Of a stretch of DNA of 64,000 bases, positions 1,880-47,886 are shown piece after piece. The stretch covers positions 1 through 64,000 of the IMG/VR virus record IMGVR_UViG_3300049617_000088; one strand, 5' to 3'. This stretch comes from a virus. Under the pieces are notes generated by a model. It was not told where the DNA came from and did no database searches. It saw nothing but the letters and a program-made list of their open reading frames with translations. Both the position numbers and the translations under genes were made by a program. Positions within the stretch are counted from its first letter, which is position 1. Every line of letters starts with the position of its first letter.

Positions 1880-2155
1880 ATGAAATTTGATGACTAGAGA
1901 TTGTAAAGATTGTGATTATAGATTGACCCAACTAAAATCATAGGGAACATGCACTTAACCCGTAGCATGCTTTCGGACTTGTAGTTTGCCCCACTAACAA
2001 GTTTTTAGGATATCTGGCTTAACCTCTCCTGATAAAGTATGAGGGTTTACTATAGCAGTATGTAATCCTTACAGCATTCATCTCCACAATATACATAACA
2101 TATATTCCGGATTGATATACATCAATTCACTGTTAAGGTGATCAGTATATCTTGG

Positions 2156-2236
2156 CTCAAGAAGTAGGACTCGAACCTACAAAGTGTTTTACCACCGGGT
2201 GGTTAACAGCCTGCCTTACCATTAGGCTATCCTTGA
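2156..2236 (-). tRNA. tRNA, Asn-like, with distorted anticodon region
   Basis: Acceptor (TCAAGGA/TTCTTGA), D-arm (GCCT/AGGC) and T-arm (GTAGG-TTCGAGT-CCTAC) are good and CCA is encoded. The central part contains CTGTTAA, the Asn GUU loop, but the 3' half of the anticodon stem is replaced by a different hairpin (ACCAC/GTGGT). It may be an inactive or rearranged tRNA-Asn. The HNH gene upstream ends inside its first 10 nt. Confidence 0.5.
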
Positions 2237-2658
2237 ATGATTTTACTTCTTAGTGAAATAATAAGCTGCGCAACTTGTTTCATTTCTTCAGAGCTTAATG
2301 TTACATTTCTAATTAAATTACAAGCTTCACAACAAGACACAACGTTATCAAATTGATAACCGATATTATTATTTACTCTATCTAATCCGGACGCTTGCGA
2401 AACTATATTGCCTATTTTATTGGCACAATAAAAACAAGGCTTATTGTAAAATGTTTTAAACTCTTCCAAAGAAAGTGACCAATCTATTTTTCTAATTTTA
2501 GCCTTTCTTTTGGAACGATCAAATCTAGTTTCAACTAATTTATTATAAATTTTTACTCTGACAGAATTAATACCTCTCCACCGTTTAGAATAACATGGAT
2601 TACACATTCCACTCTTCCATCTTAATGCGGATGTAGTATTACATATTTTACATTCCAT
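2227..2658 (-). CDS. HNH homing endonuclease-like protein
   Basis: A 143-residue DNA endonuclease of the HNH family. An N-terminal zinc pair (CKIC and CNPC) precedes a C-terminal HNH core with CFYC, SGLDRVNNN and CCEACNLIRN, matching the ββα-metal fold. It lies between tRNA genes at 2156 and 2662. Its TAG stop lies within the 5' end of the downstream tRNA, so the last codons are shared with that tRNA. Such genes spread by cutting alleles that lack them, which is family knowledge. Confidence 0.85.
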   Translation of the reverse strand: MECKICNTTSALRWKSGMCNPCYSKRWRGINSVRVKIYNKLVETRFDRSKRKAKIRKIDWSLSLEEFKTFYNKPCFYCANKIGNIVSQASGLDRVNNNIGYQFDNVVSCCEACNLIRNVTLSSEEMKQVAQLIISLRSKIIQG

Positions 2659-2749: not shown

Positions 2750-2829
2750 TGTTCCCGGTTGGATTTGATACCAACATCTCTGCATTGCCACCCTTAATGG
2801 GTGGGCGTCCTAACTTAGACCACAGGAAC
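2750..2829 (-). tRNA. Unusual tRNA, loop CAUUAAG
   Basis: Acceptor GTTCCTG/CGGGAAC and D-stem GTCT/GGAC pair well. The anticodon stem CCACC/GGTGG is perfect and closes CATTAAG. Counting positions, 34-36 read UUA, which would pair with the ochre codon UAA, but position 33 is A. The T-loop has eight bases (TATCAAAT) instead of seven. CCA is encoded. It may be a suppressor-like or a decayed tRNA. Confidence 0.5.
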
Positions 2830-3418: not shown

Positions 3419-3570
3419 ATGTTATAATCTTCTGAGTTACTTGAGTGCTATAGCTGAAGATTATATTGGAACTATATTAACTCCCAATGATATCTAATTG
3501 CTGTTATCCATTCAGCATAGTCAACCTAAAAGGAAGATGCTATGATAAGCGTTTCCATTAAATATCATGG

Positions 3571-3644: not shown

Positions 3645-3717
3645 CGCCGCCAGCTAGACTCACACTAACATTATCTTCCTTTAATGGAAGACGTTCTAAT
3701 AATTAAACTACAGCGGC
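3645..3717 (-). tRNA. Unusual tRNA, loop with CAUUAAA
   Basis: Acceptor GCCGCTG/TGGCGGC and D-stem GTTT/GAAC pair. The T-stem GTTAG/CTAGC is intact but its loop is TGTGAGT, lacking TTC. The anticodon stem TCTTC/GAAGA closes an 8-nt loop CATTAAAG containing UUA. It resembles the 2750-2829 tRNA in having A before UUA. CCA is encoded. Identity is unknown and function doubtful. Confidence 0.5.
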
Positions 3718-3874: not shown

Positions 3875-3930
3875 TGGGAAATAAGAGAATCGGACTCTAA
3901 TCGTTCTTTTTCGCATAAAGATGTAATTCC
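3875..3930 (-). pseudogene. tRNA 3'-half-like remnant
   Basis: The minus strand carries a T-arm-like hairpin (AGAG-TCCGATT-CTCT), then ATTTCCC, A and CCA. No 5' acceptor partner (GGGAAAT) or D-arm is found within tRNA distance. Confidence 0.22.
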
Positions 3931-3949
3931 TTCTGGCATTTGTTACTGG

Positions 3950-4034: not shown

Positions 4035-4107
4035 TCAGAGATATCAGATTTGCACTGATTCCACATGGTTCCAGACCACGGATGCTCCTGTTAAACACCA
4101 ATCTCTG
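4035..4107 (-). tRNA. tRNA-Pro (UGG), probable
   Basis: The acceptor CAGAGAT/ATCTCTG is perfect, the T-arm is ATCAG-TGCAAAT-CTGAT, and the anticodon stem CGTGG/CCATG closes TCTGGAA, giving UGG with C33. CCA is encoded. It is a paralogue of the 3950-4022 tRNA (same D-loop and T-loop style). The upstream HNH gene ends inside its first 17 nt. Confidence 0.68.
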
Positions 4108-4615
4108 ATAATTCTTTATTAAGTAATTCTCCACTGTGATGCGCAGCGTGACAGTTTCTACATAACAATACGCATTTATTTAATTCTTTATCTATCTTTT
4201 CTCTAGACCAATATCTGGCTACTGAAAAAGCAACATCTTTTTTTGTAGGATCTTTATGATGAATATCTAAGGAAGCTTTCCATTTATCAAAACCACAGTT
4301 AATACATTTGTCACCAAGCTTAGCCAACATATATTTTCTATTATCTTGACCTTTAGCTAAGGTATAAGAACAGTGACATTTGGTGCATACAGTAGTTTTG
4401 TTTCCATAAAACTTATTTGGATCATTTTCTCCACACTTACATTTTCTTGGAAAAGAAAAATCTTTTGGCTTTTTTCCTCTAGCACCACGCTTCAATTTTA
4501 AACTAAATTTCTTTATCCAATATCTAACGTTAGATTGAGACGTACTACATTCTTTTGCTATTTGTTTTAAAGTAAAACCTCGCTCAATAAGCGGGGATAA
4601 TATTTCATTTTCCAT
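4091..4615 (-). CDS. HNH homing endonuclease-like protein
   Basis: A 174-residue protein. The first 40 residues form a helix-turn-helix (TLKQIAKECSTSQSNVRYWI), followed by a zinc segment (CKCGEND, CTKCHC) and a C-terminal HNH core with CINCGF, LDIHHKDP and LLCRNCHAAHH. The family cuts DNA at specific sites to copy itself. The TAA stop lies within the 5' end of the tRNA-Pro at 4035-4107, so gene and tRNA form a fused cassette. Confidence 0.87.
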   Translation of the reverse strand: MENEILSPLIERGFTLKQIAKECSTSQSNVRYWIKKFSLKLKRGARGKKPKDFSFPRKCKCGENDPNKFYGNKTTVCTKCHCSYTLAKGQDNRKYMLAKLGDKCINCGFDKWKASLDIHHKDPTKKDVAFSVARYWSREKIDKELNKCVLLCRNCHAAHHSGELLNKELSEIGV

Positions 4616-4697: not shown

Positions 4698-4797
4698 TCG
4701 GTGATACTGGATTCGAACCAGTGATCTTCTGCTCCCATTTTACAAGAGGCTATGCCCCTTTATAAGCAGACGCGATACCAGGCTTCGCTAATCACCG
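4698..4797 (-). tRNA. tRNA-Pro (UGG) with a 26-nt intron-like insertion
   Basis: All arms are canonical: acceptor CGGTGAT/ATCACCG, D-arm GCGA/TCGC with loop AGCCTGGTA, anticodon stem TCTGC/GCAGA, T-arm ACTGG-TTCGAAT-CCAGT. The acceptor and D-loop match bacterial tRNA-Pro as I remember it. The anticodon loop is 33 nt. Removing 26 nt between positions 33 and 34 leaves TTTGGGA, the standard UGG loop. The removed piece folds as AAGGGGC-ATA-GCCTCTT. Group I introns are far longer. CCA is not encoded. Confidence 0.8.
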
Positions 4798-4969: not shown

Positions 4970-4986
4970 ATAGCTGACAAAAATTG

Positions 4987-5025
4987 ATGGTGATTTTTTT
5001 ATCTAATTGGATGTAATCACTATCG
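4987..5025 (-). terminator. Intergenic hairpin with T-run, copy 2
   Basis: This is the second copy of the 656-686 element: GATGGTGAT (4987-4995) pairs with ATCACTATC (5017-5025) and is followed on the minus strand by TTTTT. It lies between the tRNA at 5125 and tRNA-Tyr. Confidence 0.4.
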
Positions 5026-5124
5026 GCATTCAGCATGGTAGGTTAATTAGCTTTTACACTAAAAAACCTATAAAATGTTATCGATTAACCTTACGTCTAA
5101 GGACCGCAGATAACTAGCGCTTGG

Positions 5125-5196: not shown

Positions 5197-5224
5197 ATGC
5201 AGACCACGTCTTAGGTGACCTTGG

Positions 5225-5297
5225 TGGGGGAGCCTGGAATTAAACCAGGGACCTTCAGATATTCCTACCTGACGCTCTTTCTCTGAGCTACTCCCCC
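5225..5297 (-). tRNA. Unusual tRNA with 8-nt anticodon loop
   Basis: The acceptor GGGGGAG/CTCCCCC is perfect, the D-stem GCTC/GAGC closes AGAGAAA, and the T-arm is CCTGG-TTTAATT-CCAGG. The anticodon stem TCAGG/TCTGA closes TAGGAATA, eight bases, so the anticodon cannot be assigned. It is a paralogue of the 5125-5196 tRNA and shares its reduced D- and T-loops. CCA is encoded. Confidence 0.6.
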
Positions 5298-7796: not shown

Positions 7797-8307
7797 TCTA
7801 TTTTTTTAATTTCCCACAACTTATTACTACTAAAATCTCCATGGCGTTGCGGGACACGGCTTCCAATAGGATAAACGTGCCATTTTCCATCTGCAAAATT
7901 TTCTTCTTTAAAATGATTTAAAGCTACCTTCCCATATGGATAAGTAACAATCCATTCGTCTTCTTTCAATTCTTCTAATATCTTCCAAGGCGATTGATCA
8001 ATTACAATCGCAGGGTAATCTGTTATCGAAGAGGATATTTTATCATCAACTTTCCAAACTTCATACGGGTGACCATAACCATCTTCGATTAAAGAATACC
8101 ACGGATAGGACATCGATTTTGGGGGTGGAAAGGATAGAGCTGCTTTCCCATCTAAAAGGCGATGCATCAAAGCAGACTTACGAATACTAACTTCTAAATT
8201 ATTTCTGTCAGTAGGAAAATCATAACCATTTTGTTTTCTAACTTCAAGAACCTTAAATAATAATTCAATAATAATTCAATATCTTTAGATAGATCCCAAC
8301 TTGGCAT
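7793..8307 (-). pseudogene. Hypothetical protein gene split by an 11-nt tandem duplication
   Basis: An ATG at 8305-8307 overlaps the stop of the GIY-YIG gene. The frame (MPSWDLSKDIELL) is interrupted at 8257-8278 by a perfect 11-nt direct repeat. Dropping one copy joins it in frame to the 125-residue downstream frame, giving 167 residues. Without the fix the downstream part could only start internally. Family unknown. The region with FPPPKSMSYPWYS and SWDLSKDIE looks like a small soluble phage protein. Confidence 0.6.
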
Positions 8308-9932: not shown

Positions 9933-11513
9933 TTACAGAGAGACGGATTCGATGGTACTTACCCACAAATCCTTATTGTTTCCAATCTCAACGAACTTTG
10001 CAATTACATCGAAGACTTGGTCACTGAAACCACCCACGTTAAGAATGTCACTTCTGTCATGAGCTTGAGTAGTTGTACTTGGAGTAACATCAATGCAAAC
10101 AAGCTTTGCCTTTGGGTTACGAGCACGGAACTTATTCCATTCCGTCATGGTTCCGGTGTTACGGTAATGTCCCGAATCCATCCATGACTCATTGTCAGAT
10201 ACATAAATAACAAGGTCACCCTTACCATTCTTACGATTAACTGACTCTAGAGCTGAAGAGCAATTGGTTCCACCACCACCAAATCCTGCCAACGTCTTGG
10301 CGTTAGTCATGATTGAATCCATTGGATTCAAACGGTGAGTATGAACGGTTGTGTCGAACGGAATTACTTCCGTGTCTGGATTCTTGCGCATAATAGCCGC
10401 AGCTACCAATGCAGCAACATCAATGCAACGCATCTTAGTCGTAGCCGAACCACGGTTTCCCGTAGCTGGAGAAGACATAGATCCTGAAGTATCCACCATG
10501 ACGTAAACCTTACCGTCAAAGGTTGGGATATTCTCCAACGCATGTTCAGCAGCCTTTTGCAAAGCAACTGAAATCTTCGTCGGCATTGTTGCCTCAATGT
10601 TCAAGAAGGCAGAGAACAACTGGTATGGGAAAACTTTCGCTCTCTTAACCTGCTCTGCGTCCTGAAGCTTATCACAAACGAGACCAACCATGGATTGATC
10701 ATTGAATACATTGTGACGCTGAAATGTATTTAGATTCATTCTAGTCTGAGTCCAAGTTGCATTAGCTGCAATCTGAGTCCAGTGGCTATCAGTTAGTGGA
10801 AGTGCCGTCAACATCTGGAAAGGCACATCAGGGATTTCTCCCGATAAGTCTTTCTTGAATGCTTCAAACTCCTTTGCTAACTGGCAAAGATCCTTCTTCG
10901 AATATTCCTTATCAAGCAAATATCCAAACAAAGCCGAACGCTTCTTGTTAGAAGGCTTCGGGTGAACTAACTTAATGATGTCCTGAAGGCTCGGATCGTT
11001 TCCGACATCTGCCTTGAACAACTGCTCATCAGTCAATGAAGCGAGATAATCCTGAATCAACTTCTTTGGGCGAGTACCCAGAGACTTACGACCAGTGACA
11101 CCTGAACGAATAACCTGAACGAAGTTTCTCAACATCTTCGGGTTATCAATGACCTTCGGGAAAATCTTGGACAATAGATCAGAGTCCTTTCCAGCTACCA
11201 CTGCTGCCAGAGTAGCAGGCATGTCCTTCATCAATCCCTTCTGACGAGCATAGACCGCCAGCTTTGCAACAAACTTTGGATCAAGTTTGTTAGCTAACTC
11301 AAGAGTCTTCTTCAACTGCTCTTGATCAGAAACGTAATACGTTCCGTTAAAACAACCAGTCATAGCTAGTTGAGCTAAAGCTGCCTTGTCGGCAAGCGAA
11401 TAAGCAGTTCCACCAGCATGGTTAGTCGTGTCTACTGGCTTGGTAACCTTAGCAGACGGAACTACAGACTTCTTAGATGACTTGATAGATGCAAATAATT
11501 TCTTAGATGACAT
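9933..11513 (-). CDS. TROVE-domain RNA-binding protein (Ro60/Rsr-like)
   Basis: A 526-residue protein of the Ro60 family: helical-repeat TROVE ring (about residues 40-340), then a VWA domain with the metal site DTSGSMSS and later VIYVSDNESWMDSG. In known Ro proteins the ring holds ends of misfolded RNAs and the outside binds Y RNAs. Bacterial Rsr works with RNA degradation and is linked to rtcBA in some genomes. An AAAGGGAG site precedes the chosen ATG at 11513. A sigma70-like promoter lies about 70 bp upstream. Confidence 0.92.
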   Translation of the reverse strand: MSSKKLFASIKSSKKSVVPSAKVTKPVDTTNHAGGTAYSLADKAALAQLAMTGCFNGTYYVSDQEQLKKTLELANKLDPKFVAKLAVYARQKGLMKDMPATLAAVVAGKDSDLLSKIFPKVIDNPKMLRNFVQVIRSGVTGRKSLGTRPKKLIQDYLASLTDEQLFKADVGNDPSLQDIIKLVHPKPSNKKRSALFGYLLDKEYSKKDLCQLAKEFEAFKKDLSGEIPDVPFQMLTALPLTDSHWTQIAANATWTQTRMNLNTFQRHNVFNDQSMVGLVCDKLQDAEQVKRAKVFPYQLFSAFLNIEATMPTKISVALQKAAEHALENIPTFDGKVYVMVDTSGSMSSPATGNRGSATTKMRCIDVAALVAAAIMRKNPDTEVIPFDTTVHTHRLNPMDSIMTNAKTLAGFGGGGTNCSSALESVNRKNGKGDLVIYVSDNESWMDSGHYRNTGTMTEWNKFRARNPKAKLVCIDVTPSTTTQAHDRSDILNVGGFSDQVFDVIAKFVEIGNNKDLWVSTIESVSL

Positions 11514-12591: not shown

Positions 12592-13122
12592 TTATTTAAT
12601 CACTGACAATATCATTCCCAAAGTAGTCCAACCTACCTGTTCGTTTAAGATCAAATCTTGAACTGAATGAACTTCTATGAAGGTCATTTCTGAATCTTTA
12701 ACATTCCCGTGAACGATTCCATCTTGGGATTTGAACCATTCTAATTCTTCTTCGTTTATTTCAGCGGAATAAAAATAAGCTTTGTGTGCAGAAAGAGTGC
12801 CTGATAATTGTCGAGCGCCATGAGAGGTTAATCGATCGGGAGAAAGGTGGAATCCTGTTTCTTCATGTACTTCTTCGGCGGCAACTTCCTGTGGATCTTC
12901 TCCCCTCTTAAAGGAAGAACCTCCAGGTAATTCTCTAATGAATCCGTCTTTTGTATTAGCGGGCGATCTAAATTCTTTAACTAAAATCACTTCTGATTCT
13001 TCTAGAGGCTCATTCTTTTTCCATAAAAGAACGGAAGAGATATCTGTTCTAGCTAAAACAAACTCATTATCTTTATTTCTTTTTTCGGATTCCACGTAAA
13101 CATTTACTTTAAGAACCCACAT
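12592..13122 (-). CDS. Nudix hydrolase, ADP-ribose pyrophosphatase-like
   Basis: A 176-residue Nudix enzyme. The box runs from GGSSFKRGEDPQEVAAEEV to HEETGF, with the REXXEE-type glutamates (EEVHEE). Such enzymes hydrolyse nucleoside diphosphates linked to another group. The domain around VILVKEFRSPA resembles ADP-ribose-type members, but the substrate is not determined. A start at 13122 fits. Confidence 0.85.
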   Translation of the reverse strand: MWVLKVNVYVESEKRNKDNEFVLARTDISSVLLWKKNEPLEESEVILVKEFRSPANTKDGFIRELPGGSSFKRGEDPQEVAAEEVHEETGFHLSPDRLTSHGARQLSGTLSAHKAYFYSAEINEEELEWFKSQDGIVHGNVKDSEMTFIEVHSVQDLILNEQVGWTTLGMILSVIK

Positions 13123-24777: not shown

Positions 24778-24819
24778 AATATATCTTTCATTCAGACTTT
24801 GTTTTATTTAATAAATTGG

Positions 24820-24939
24820 TGGAACGGGCAGGATTTGAACCTGCAATCTTCACTCGTGATGGAGTTAAAGATAGGCATGCTTGGGGGCTCATCACTGCCC
24901 TTACGAACGCCCGTGTACGCCAATTCCAACCACCGTTCC
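24820..24939 (-). tRNA. Class II (Leu-like) tRNA with anticodon-loop insertion
   Basis: The acceptor GGAACGG/CCGTTCC and T-arm GCAGG-TTCAAAT-CCTGC are perfect, and the D-arm GGAATTGG is Leu-like. Between them, GGGCG can pair with TGCCT around a 30-nt loop, and ATCTT-ACTC pairs with GAGT-AAGAT as a long variable arm. A 7-nt loop would need about 23 nt removed. Anticodon unresolved (Leu AAG or CAG possible). CCA is encoded. Confidence 0.6.
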
Positions 24940-45809: not shown

Positions 45810-46388
45810 ATGAGTAAAAAAGACTATACAAATTTAAAAGTAAATAGATTAACTTTTATTAAGGCAACTAACAAAAAGAGTGGTGGTAAAATTGTTTGGG
45901 AATTACTTTGTGAATGCGGAAATATCACATATGCTATTGTATATAAAGTAACATCTGGACGAACTAAAAGTTGCGGATGTTATGCTTTACAAGTAGCCTC
46001 AAAAATTGCCACTAAGCGCGGATTAGCCAATAGAAAATACCCTCCTATTATAAGCAGTGCCCGACGAGTATGGGAGTACTATAAAGATGGATGTGATTTT
46101 GAAACATTCTTTAAACTATCTCAATTGTCCTGTGATTATTGCGGTAGAAAACCATATAGAATATTTAATATTGGATCGAAACAACGTAAAAGTGAGTGTA
46201 CGAGTGACTTCCAAAAAACAGAAGGAAATTTTATATACAACGGTTTAGATCGTATTGATAGTTCAAAAACTCATACACCAGATAATGTGGTTCCATGTTG
46301 TTGGGATTGTAATGATATGAAAAAAGATCGTACACGTGATGAATTTATATCACATATAAAACGTATACATACTCACCTTACCCCTTGA
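45810..46388 (+). CDS. HNH homing endonuclease-like protein
   Basis: The start at ATG 45810 is preferred to the frame opening at 45744. An N-terminal zinc domain (WELLCECGNITY, SCGCYAL) precedes a C-terminal core (SCDYCGRKP, NGLDRIDSSKTHTPDNVVPC, CWDCNDMKKDR). It diverges from tRNA-Arg. Confidence 0.85.
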   Translation: MSKKDYTNLKVNRLTFIKATNKKSGGKIVWELLCECGNITYAIVYKVTSGRTKSCGCYALQVASKIATKRGLANRKYPPIISSARRVWEYYKDGCDFETFFKLSQLSCDYCGRKPYRIFNIGSKQRKSECTSDFQKTEGNFIYNGLDRIDSSKTHTPDNVVPCCWDCNDMKKDRTRDEFISHIKRIHTHLTP

Positions 46389-47886
46389 CAGTACAAAGGG
46401 GCATGAGTTTAGCCACTACTCTAGCAATCCCTGCCTCTTCAATAGAGTTGATTACTGGAGTAATCGGCTTGTAAGCATAAGGCGCCTCTTCTTTAATTCG
46501 AGCCTTATACTTTTTGAGAATGTCTTTCCTTAATTGCATCTGAGGTGACTTAGGATCTATCGCCGTCACCAATCGAAGTGTCTCTGTTTCTTTATCGAAT
46601 ATATCATCCGAGACATGAGATGCTTCACCACGAGGCATCATCCTTCCAGCACCATGACAAGCACTAGAAAGTGCTTCCTCATTACCAGTTCCAGTCAATA
46701 GATAACTAGCACTTCCCATCGAGCCAGGAATGATCACAGGTCGACCCATCCAGTCAGATTCAGTCAATGGTCCCTCAGCAGGAGTTGCCCCTTTTCGATG
46801 AAGGAAAGAACCCTCCCGTTTGAAAACAAGATTGTGGGGAGCGTCATAGATTAATCGAAAATCAATCTCAATTCCTAACACCTCCTGAATAGCTCGTACC
46901 GCCATTAATCCTAAAAACAAACGGTTAGCAAAGGCGAAGTTGGCTGCATTATACATGCTATCCAAGTAGAATTCGCCTTCCTTCTGATACTCGCCGGACA
47001 TAGGAAGAACATAGAAATCATTCTTCGGATGCTTAATGCCATGAGGAAATAACTCTCGGGCACGATCCATGAAGTGACCGCCCACAACGTGACCTAAAGC
47101 CACTGAACCAGAATGAATCATGATGGCAAGATTGCCTTTGGTCAGGTTCATCTGACGAGCAGATTCACCACAAACAATCTCATCAATCTTTTGCAGTTCC
47201 ACAAAATGATTACCACCACCTACACAACCAATCTGCGGGTCACGACCATCCACTTCACCAGAAGATTGAATGAACTTCTCAAATCCAAACAATCGTTTGG
47301 TTTCAAAACCACCATGATTGTTGATTCTATTCAAATCATCGGCTTGAGTTCTGGCATCATAATACTTGTAGATGCCAGTACCTTGATTGTCTTTGGAGTG
47401 ACGTAGAAGACCGGGCAATCCATCGCGCAAGACAGCTTCTCTTTGTTGAGGAGACATAGGAATATCTCTTTGACCCTGAAAGAAAAGGGCGCGAAGCTTC
47501 TTTTGAATAGCATCCCAATGATCATCCAGTTTGCTAACAGGCAAATCAGTGGCAAGCAATCGCATTCCACAACAGATATCATTTCCAATAGCCTTAGGAA
47601 CAACGAACCCGTAAGCCTCCGCCACCGTTCCAACAGGTACGCCAGAACCTTTGTGGAAGTCGGGAGTCAGAACCACTCGGTTGATTCTAGCATCCTTATC
47701 TAGGAAAGTGGATTGGCTAGCATGAATATCACGAACGGCTCGTTCAACATCAAGGAATCCAAACAGTTCTTCAAATGCATCGTTCTCAACGAAGACATCT
47801 TTGTTGGCAAAGAGCTTGACATCGAGATTGAGATCATTAGTAATCTCGCAGCAGGCATCAGAGGTTCTTTTGACTTTATAGTTCAT
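46378..47886 (-). CDS. rtcB: RNA-splicing ligase RtcB
   Basis: Joins 2',3'-cyclic phosphate or 3'-phosphate RNA ends to 5'-OH ends using GTP and manganese. Complete, 502 residues: NDICCGMR, VGGGNHFVEL, MIHSGSVALG, the HxxGA-type segment RKGATPAEG, IPGSMGSAS and SACHGAGR are all present. No archease is seen nearby. RtcB acts in tRNA splicing and RNA repair. Confidence 0.96.
   Translation of the reverse strand: MNYKVKRTSDACCEITNDLNLDVKLFANKDVFVENDAFEELFGFLDVERAVRDIHASQSTFLDKDARINRVVLTPDFHKGSGVPVGTVAEAYGFVVPKAIGNDICCGMRLLATDLPVSKLDDHWDAIQKKLRALFFQGQRDIPMSPQQREAVLRDGLPGLLRHSKDNQGTGIYKYYDARTQADDLNRINNHGGFETKRLFGFEKFIQSSGEVDGRDPQIGCVGGGNHFVELQKIDEIVCGESARQMNLTKGNLAIMIHSGSVALGHVVGGHFMDRARELFPHGIKHPKNDFYVLPMSGEYQKEGEFYLDSMYNAANFAFANRLFLGLMAVRAIQEVLGIEIDFRLIYDAPHNLVFKREGSFLHRKGATPAEGPLTESDWMGRPVIIPGSMGSASYLLTGTGNEEALSSACHGAGRMMPRGEASHVSDDIFDKETETLRLVTAIDPKSPQMQLRKDILKKYKARIKEEAPYAYKPITPVINSIEEAGIARVVAKLMPLCTVKG

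Follow-up and report, generated by a model that had tools for sequence, protein, structure and literature searches.

A short intron-like insert in the anticodon loop of a phage tRNA-Pro gene beside an HNH endonuclease gene

The window analysed here spans 64,000 nt at the start of a linear viral fragment of 95.7 kb. On its minus strand, within an array of tRNA genes, lies a 100-nt tRNA-Pro(UGG) gene (4797-4698) whose anticodon loop is interrupted by a 26-nt insert between U33 and U34. An HNH endonuclease gene begins 82 nt downstream. The features of this region, with loci of other phages denoted by L and a number, are:

4764-4797, minus strand: 5' exon of tRNA-Pro, nt 1-33 (acceptor 5' strand, D arm, anticodon stem 5' strand, U32 and U33), placed by RF00005; 34/34 identical to the related locus L184
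4738-4763, minus strand: the insert, AUAAAGGGGCAUAGCCUCUUGUAAAA, 26 nt between U33 and U34; L184 is empty at precisely this site, and none of the 8 kin orthologues has the insert
4744-4760, minus strand: hairpin of the insert, AAGGGGC / AUA / GCCUCUU, 7 bp including one G-U, from a computed fold
4698-4737, minus strand: 3' exon of tRNA-Pro (U34 G35 G36 G37 A38, anticodon stem 3' strand, variable loop, T arm, acceptor 3' strand, A73), placed by RF00005; 35/40 identical to L184
4695-4697, minus strand: AGU, where 8/8 kin tRNA-Pro genes encode CCA, from sequence comparison
4091-4615, minus strand: HNH endonuclease gene, 174 aa, a candidate homing endonuclease (phrog_2255, 4e-19)
2227-2658, minus strand: second HNH/endonuclease VII-like gene, directly upstream of the window tRNA-Asn (phrog_3118, 3.8e-13; phrog_1035, 2e-11)
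2153-2236, minus strand: tRNA-Asn(GUU) with a long variable arm, uninterrupted, its 5' anticodon strand 3 nt short; counterpart of interrupted tRNA-Asn genes in L157, L166 and L179

The tRNA-Pro gene matches RF00005 over the full model with a score of 54.8 bits (gathering 29; E 4.9e-9), every extra base falling within the anticodon loop. Its acceptor, D, anticodon and T stems, of 7, 4, 5 and 5 pairs, are paired at 21/21 positions, and the loop bases, T loop and D loop are canonical, with no damage besides the insert and the loss of CCA, which most tRNAs of the same array encode. The anticodon loop measures 33 nt; leaving out the 26 nt restores UUUGGGA with anticodon UGG, and on its paired stems and this loop the gene is then a member of RF00005 and of tRNA-Pro(UGG). 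The joined 74-mer is 83.8% identical to the tRNA-Pro of Aeromonas phage ST4, ungapped over 74/74. Among viral loci fetched by pattern, the nearest uninterrupted tRNA-Pro shows 12 differences from it, by which four stem pairs are altered on both sides and 0 are broken. ARAGORN misses the gene in default mode; with introns allowed, it recovers the same 26 nt as an insert and misnames the gene tRNA-Tyr(ata).

The insert starts and ends with A within UU^U, so its boundary at 33/34 is unambiguous. The hairpin folds at -8.5 kcal/mol; at least as stable a fold is reached by 1.1% of the 26-mers of the window and by 0.16% of mononucleotide shuffles. No second copy is present within 6 edits in the 95.7-kb contig, and nothing closer than 7/26 mismatches occurs in the fetched loci. 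A first-pass annotation, made from the sequence alone, had described a real tRNA-Pro with canonical arms, a 7-bp hairpin, and a standard loop once 26 nt are removed at 33/34; all of this holds, the last point being borne out by an exact empty site in L184.

Other members of the array are also unusual. The tRNA-like genes at 3645-3717, 1805-1879 and 5222-5297 (minus strand) either lack U33 or have anticodon loops of 6 or 8 nt, and may be decaying or non-decoding. The tRNA-like RNA at 2750-2829 (minus strand) has A instead of U33, and its Rfam skipping-rope score of 30.4 bits lies below the cut-off of 36.7. A repeated spacer element, ATGCCGATAGTGATTACAT, occurs with its variants inside closing helices at 637-701, 2061-2090, 2973-2998, 3497-3515, 3921-3945 and 4970-5045 (minus strand); kin spacers are similar, and these elements, near the Ro60/TROVE gene, are candidate phage Y RNAs. 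At 24817-24939 (minus strand), and in kin L188, a CCA-ended tRNA body carries a long structured insert with GUGAUG/CAUCAC, possibly a YrlA-like tRNA mimic. In L184, the anticodon loop of the tRNA-like gene at 12631-12734 exceeds that of its L157 counterpart by about 27 nt, another short insertion in the clade and one of comparable size.

Kin were reached only through the vWA protein adjoining the tRNA array. This gave nine kin loci, one being a second piece of the L157 contig; L157 is a true relative, reached through a tRNA-Asn found by another route. Queries of viral contigs with the RtcB, DUF7275 and LysRS proteins gave no relatives. In 8 of 9 kin (L157 contig counted once) tRNA-Pro(UGG) adjoins tRNA-Tyr, is uninterrupted and encodes CCA. 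The insert is found in 0/8 of these orthologues, which include two near-identical phages. The L184 tRNA-Pro, at the same place and without the insert, is 69/74 identical overall, and the differences in the 3' exon include two T-stem pairs changed on both sides. Since the insert is absent in kin and the empty site in L184 is exact, it was gained in the window's lineage. It appears to be young and confined to that lineage, the phages closest to the window possibly falling outside the search. A pattern for interrupted tRNA-Pro (insert of 12-42 nt) has 0 matches in IMG/VR, against at least 120 for the same pattern without an insert. In 84,980 genomes the interrupted pattern has one match, in L012 (Dehalococcoidia), a chance match with no tRNA at the site. 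The first-pass annotation had looked to related phages for conserved insertions as the mark of an intron; by these counts the insert is not conserved.

The HNH gene at 4091-4615 is 74% identical to the HNH directly downstream of tRNA-Pro in L179, and more distantly similar to HNH genes near interrupted tRNA-Asn. No HNH is found downstream of tRNA-Pro in kin other than L179. An HNH gene adjoining the insert, and presence or absence of the insert among relatives, are the marks of an HNH-linked mobile insert cassette, and both are found here. The arrangement fits an endonuclease that would target the tRNA-Pro anticodon region and be blocked in the window by the insert; the adjacent HNH probably targets the insert site. 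The link is circumstantial: L179 has the HNH without the insert, its uninterrupted tRNA-Pro having a quite different, diverged anticodon stem, and in several kin an HNH gene adjoins an uninterrupted tRNA-Asn.

Inserts of a comparable kind occur in phage tRNA-Asn(GUU) genes. The first lead to these came from ARAGORN intron mode, which on viral loci returned rare tRNA bodies with anticodon-arm inserts. A pattern scan, the kin loci and a GenBank phage search together gave 13 distinct inserts between U35 and U36 (CUGU^insert^UAA), mostly 45-52 nt long and usually with a purine tail. Part of the set, to which further loci belong, is:

L157:3348-3481, minus strand: interrupted tRNA-Asn of the 35/36 insert family
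L157:4224-4347, minus strand: interrupted tRNA-Asn of the same family
L179:13523-13654: interrupted tRNA-Asn of the same family
L166:694-827: interrupted tRNA-Asn of the same family
L177 (phiM7):1495-1617: interrupted tRNA-Asn of the same family, at 92505-92627 in the phiM7 record
L085:902-1021, minus strand: interrupted tRNA-Asn of the same family
L142:447-569: interrupted tRNA-Asn of the same family
L061:8073-8216: interrupted tRNA-Asn of the same family, with a 71-nt insert

The Asn inserts fold as a minihelix, an acceptor-like helix plus a T arm. Acceptor-like pairs 0-3 and pairs T0-T2 are paired in 13/13 inserts with up to 4 pair types, as counted on hand-set arms, since MAFFT misaligned inserts with an extra hairpin. 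Covariation in an 8-sequence alignment is 0.671 versus 0.245 when shuffled, and 0/500 shuffles reach it. The T loop and border letters are not evidence alone because they are part of the search pattern; the evidence for the family is covariation, movement and the outer tRNA arms. L157 carries near-identical inserts, 46 and 47 nt long, in two tRNA-Asn genes whose exons differ greatly; this shows movement of the insert, and the pair flanks the L157 HNH gene on both sides. Among the carriers are the isolated Sinorhizobium phages phiM7, phiM12 and phiM19, where an HNH gene overlaps the interrupted tRNA-Asn or directly follows it; the interrupted copy is annotated as pseudo tRNA-OTHER in phiM12 and as tRNA-Thr in phiM7. 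An HNH motif lies within 500 nt of 10/14 interrupted tRNA-Asn genes versus 84/1167 uninterrupted tRNAs, the former figure being biased upward because some HNH queries came from interrupted loci. The 71-nt insert of L061 ends in CCA just before exon 2, and so looks like a complete small tRNA-like RNA lodged inside the anticodon loop of a second tRNA. Compensatory exon changes among L157, L166 and L179 were dropped as proof of selection while interrupted, because uninterrupted L180 and L183 carry the same anticodon-stem variants and the changes may predate the inserts. The family is apparently undescribed, and its inserts appear conserved, structured and mobile at one fixed site.

The Pro insert and the Asn family are alike in being short anticodon-loop inserts in otherwise intact phage tRNAs, present or absent among close relatives, and in the Asn family too an HNH gene is often nearby. 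They differ in form and position: a plain 26-nt hairpin at 33/34 in the one, an acceptor/T-arm minihelix at 35/36 in the other. Membership of the Pro insert in the Asn family was rejected, the family model R1 giving 10.8 bits on the Pro gene and only over the tRNA's own T arm. An intron-like reading of the Pro insert nonetheless gains indirect support because conserved anticodon-loop inserts exist in phage tRNA-Asn.

Against this reading stands the possibility that the insertion inactivated tRNA-Pro and is never removed, leaving a young pseudogene in a partly decaying array; at the DNA level the insertion would be no more than a scar, or a shield from a homing endonuclease. This is a serious contender, with a sizeable chance of being correct. 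The window tRNA-Pro may simply be decaying, because other tRNA-like genes of the array have abnormal anticodon arms, the neighbours showing 6- or 8-nt loops, a missing U33 or broken stems. The insert is unique to the window phage, CCA is lost in the window and kept in 8/8 kin, and tRNA genes can be dispensable to phages. Against inactivation are exons whose pairs, loop bases and T and D loops are otherwise undamaged, the position of the insert, squarely within the anticodon loop, its hairpin fold, and the conservation by phages of structured anticodon-loop inserts in tRNA-Asn.

The window also encodes an RNA ligase, which the first-pass annotation had correctly placed:

46378-47886, minus strand: RtcB RNA ligase, 502 aa (PF01139, 305 bits)

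The same phage encodes a Ro60/TROVE protein and a lysyl-tRNA synthetase, and further on the 95.7-kb contig carries two ATP-dependent RNA ligases. RNA ligases and TROVE proteins of jumbo phages have been described as repair systems (PMC7824862). With Ro60/TROVE encoded by the window phage, RNA repair is another likely role for RtcB.

Ro60/TROVE and RtcB also raise the possibility that the interrupted tRNA-Pro acts unspliced, as bait for anticodon nucleases or in partnership with the phage Ro60, in the manner of bacterial Y RNAs that contain tRNA-mimic modules. Long structured anticodon-arm inserts of 42-60 nt occur in tRNA bodies of other phages, at L077:7647-7785, 7954-8087 and 10135-10266 (minus strand) and at L061:10450-10809, and these inserts share motifs with free stem elements (GTTACTTAG in L077, ACAGCAA in L061). 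TROVE and RtcB genes occur in the L077 record as well; the L061 locus encodes a DUF7788/DUF2828 vWA protein. The Pro insert has none of those motifs, however, and the exons retain the precise tRNA-Pro consensus in the anticodon loop, needless for a decoy. A functional unspliced RNA is therefore improbable, and the Y-RNA reading of the Pro insert was abandoned for want of the motif.

The first-pass annotation had proposed a protein-type intron sealed by RtcB. An intron of the archaeal/eukaryal type, cut by a tRNA-splicing endonuclease, could draw on the encoded RtcB and on a length of 26 nt, within the archaeal range of 11-129 nt (PMC4090602). The best BHB arrangement, however, pairs 2/4 central positions, a level matched by 99% of shuffled inserts, and the tRNA-Pro is of bacterial type. 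No tRNA-splicing endonuclease (PF01974, tRNA_int_endo) is found on the partial 95.7-kb contig, host genes lying outside it; search controls for this domain gave matches only in archaea. RtcB is absent from every tested record of a phage bearing tRNA-Asn inserts, complete phiM7 included, and from four large kin contigs tested; most of the insert-bearing phages have ATP-dependent RNA ligases. Sealing by RtcB is thus unsupported, because phages with comparable inserts lack it, and splicing of this type is very unlikely. Hardly credible is a remnant of a group I intron, for which exon 1 ends in U, like group I 5' sites, and the anticodon region is the site of bacterial group I introns (PMC4090602), but the insert is only 26 nt, ends in A and not G, has no ribozyme core, and Rfam intron families have no match in the tRNA region.

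The reading narrowly preferred here is that a once-ordinary tRNA-Pro recently gained an HNH-linked, intron-like insert which would be removed at the RNA level. Splicing of the insert is plausible, with a chance just short of even; that the tRNA is dead is almost as likely. Removal from the RNA is favoured by the exact placement, the intact exons and the Asn family in the same clade. Against it are the single example, a sequence unrelated to the Asn family, the lost CCA, the missing BHB and the failure to find a splicing endonuclease. Of the first-pass interpretation, the intron-like insert itself survives, through the parallel with the Asn family; the BHB/RtcB mechanism and conservation do not.

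From these comparisons we infer HNH targeting of tRNA-Pro, insert movement by homing, and RNA splicing. An ordinary phage tRNA-Pro(UGG) would have gained the hairpin insert at U33/U34 beside a free-standing HNH gene. The insert would split the endonuclease target in conserved anticodon-loop DNA, and would spread or protect by homing. The precursor RNA would be cleaved before and after the hairpin, and a phage or host RNA ligase would join the exons into normal tRNA-Pro. ATP-dependent RNA ligases are present in 11/12 records, T4 Rnl1-type in 5, and the single ligase-less record is a fragment whose near-identical sister has both; this co-occurrence is permissive evidence only, because such ligases are common in large phages. 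The Asn minihelix may resemble a small RNase P substrate with its 5' end at the exon 1 border. The Pro insert is most likely part of a wider phenomenon of short anticodon-loop inserts in phage tRNA arrays, linked to nearby HNH genes. A more speculative proposal is that there exists in phages a so far unrecognised class of mobile anticodon-loop tRNA introns, short at about 26-71 nt and spread by free-standing HNH endonucleases; ordinary tRNA-processing activities would cut them out and phage RNA ligases would seal the exons, and the Pro insert would be a second, independent type.

Phages may thus carry short tRNA introns of a new kind. If spliced, the inserts offer a new reason for RNA ligases in large phages. 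Interrupted tRNA genes are missed or misnamed by tRNA gene finders. The splicing question is directly testable in the laboratory because the Asn insert occurs in isolated Sinorhizobium meliloti phages.

Bacterial tRNA introns have been placed in group I only (PMC4090602), and all phage introns known to a 2014 review sat in protein genes (PMC3984707), which agrees with the first-pass view that a short non-group-I insert in a phage tRNA would be new. Like archaeal/eukaryal BHB introns (PMC4090602), the Pro insert is short, lies in the anticodon loop and leaves exons that give a canonical tRNA; unlike them, it has no BHB and no splicing endonuclease found, and sits at position 33/34 of a bacterial-type tRNA. 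Group I introns of bacterial tRNA genes (PMC3984707) share insertion in the anticodon region and mobility by homing endonucleases, but the Pro insert is 26 nt long with no ribozyme core. Bacterial Y RNAs (YrlA, with its tRNA-mimic module) likewise combine a tRNA body with another stem, with Ro60 and RtcB in the same genome; unlike YrlA, the Pro insert has no Y-like motif and the exon anticodon loop is intact. In T4, MobA makes up a mobile cassette together with the 50-nt bypass of gene 60. SegB is a free-standing homing endonuclease of T4 acting on the T4 tRNA region, and MobA is likewise free-standing (PMC2988022). Both share with the window a free-standing endonuclease gene adjoining a probable target in a phage; unlike SegB (GIY-YIG), the window endonuclease is an HNH and its candidate target a tRNA anticodon loop. 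A short mobile insert with a free-standing HNH gene is a known kind of cassette, while its location in a tRNA anticodon loop, and any splicing, would be new to the open-licence literature.
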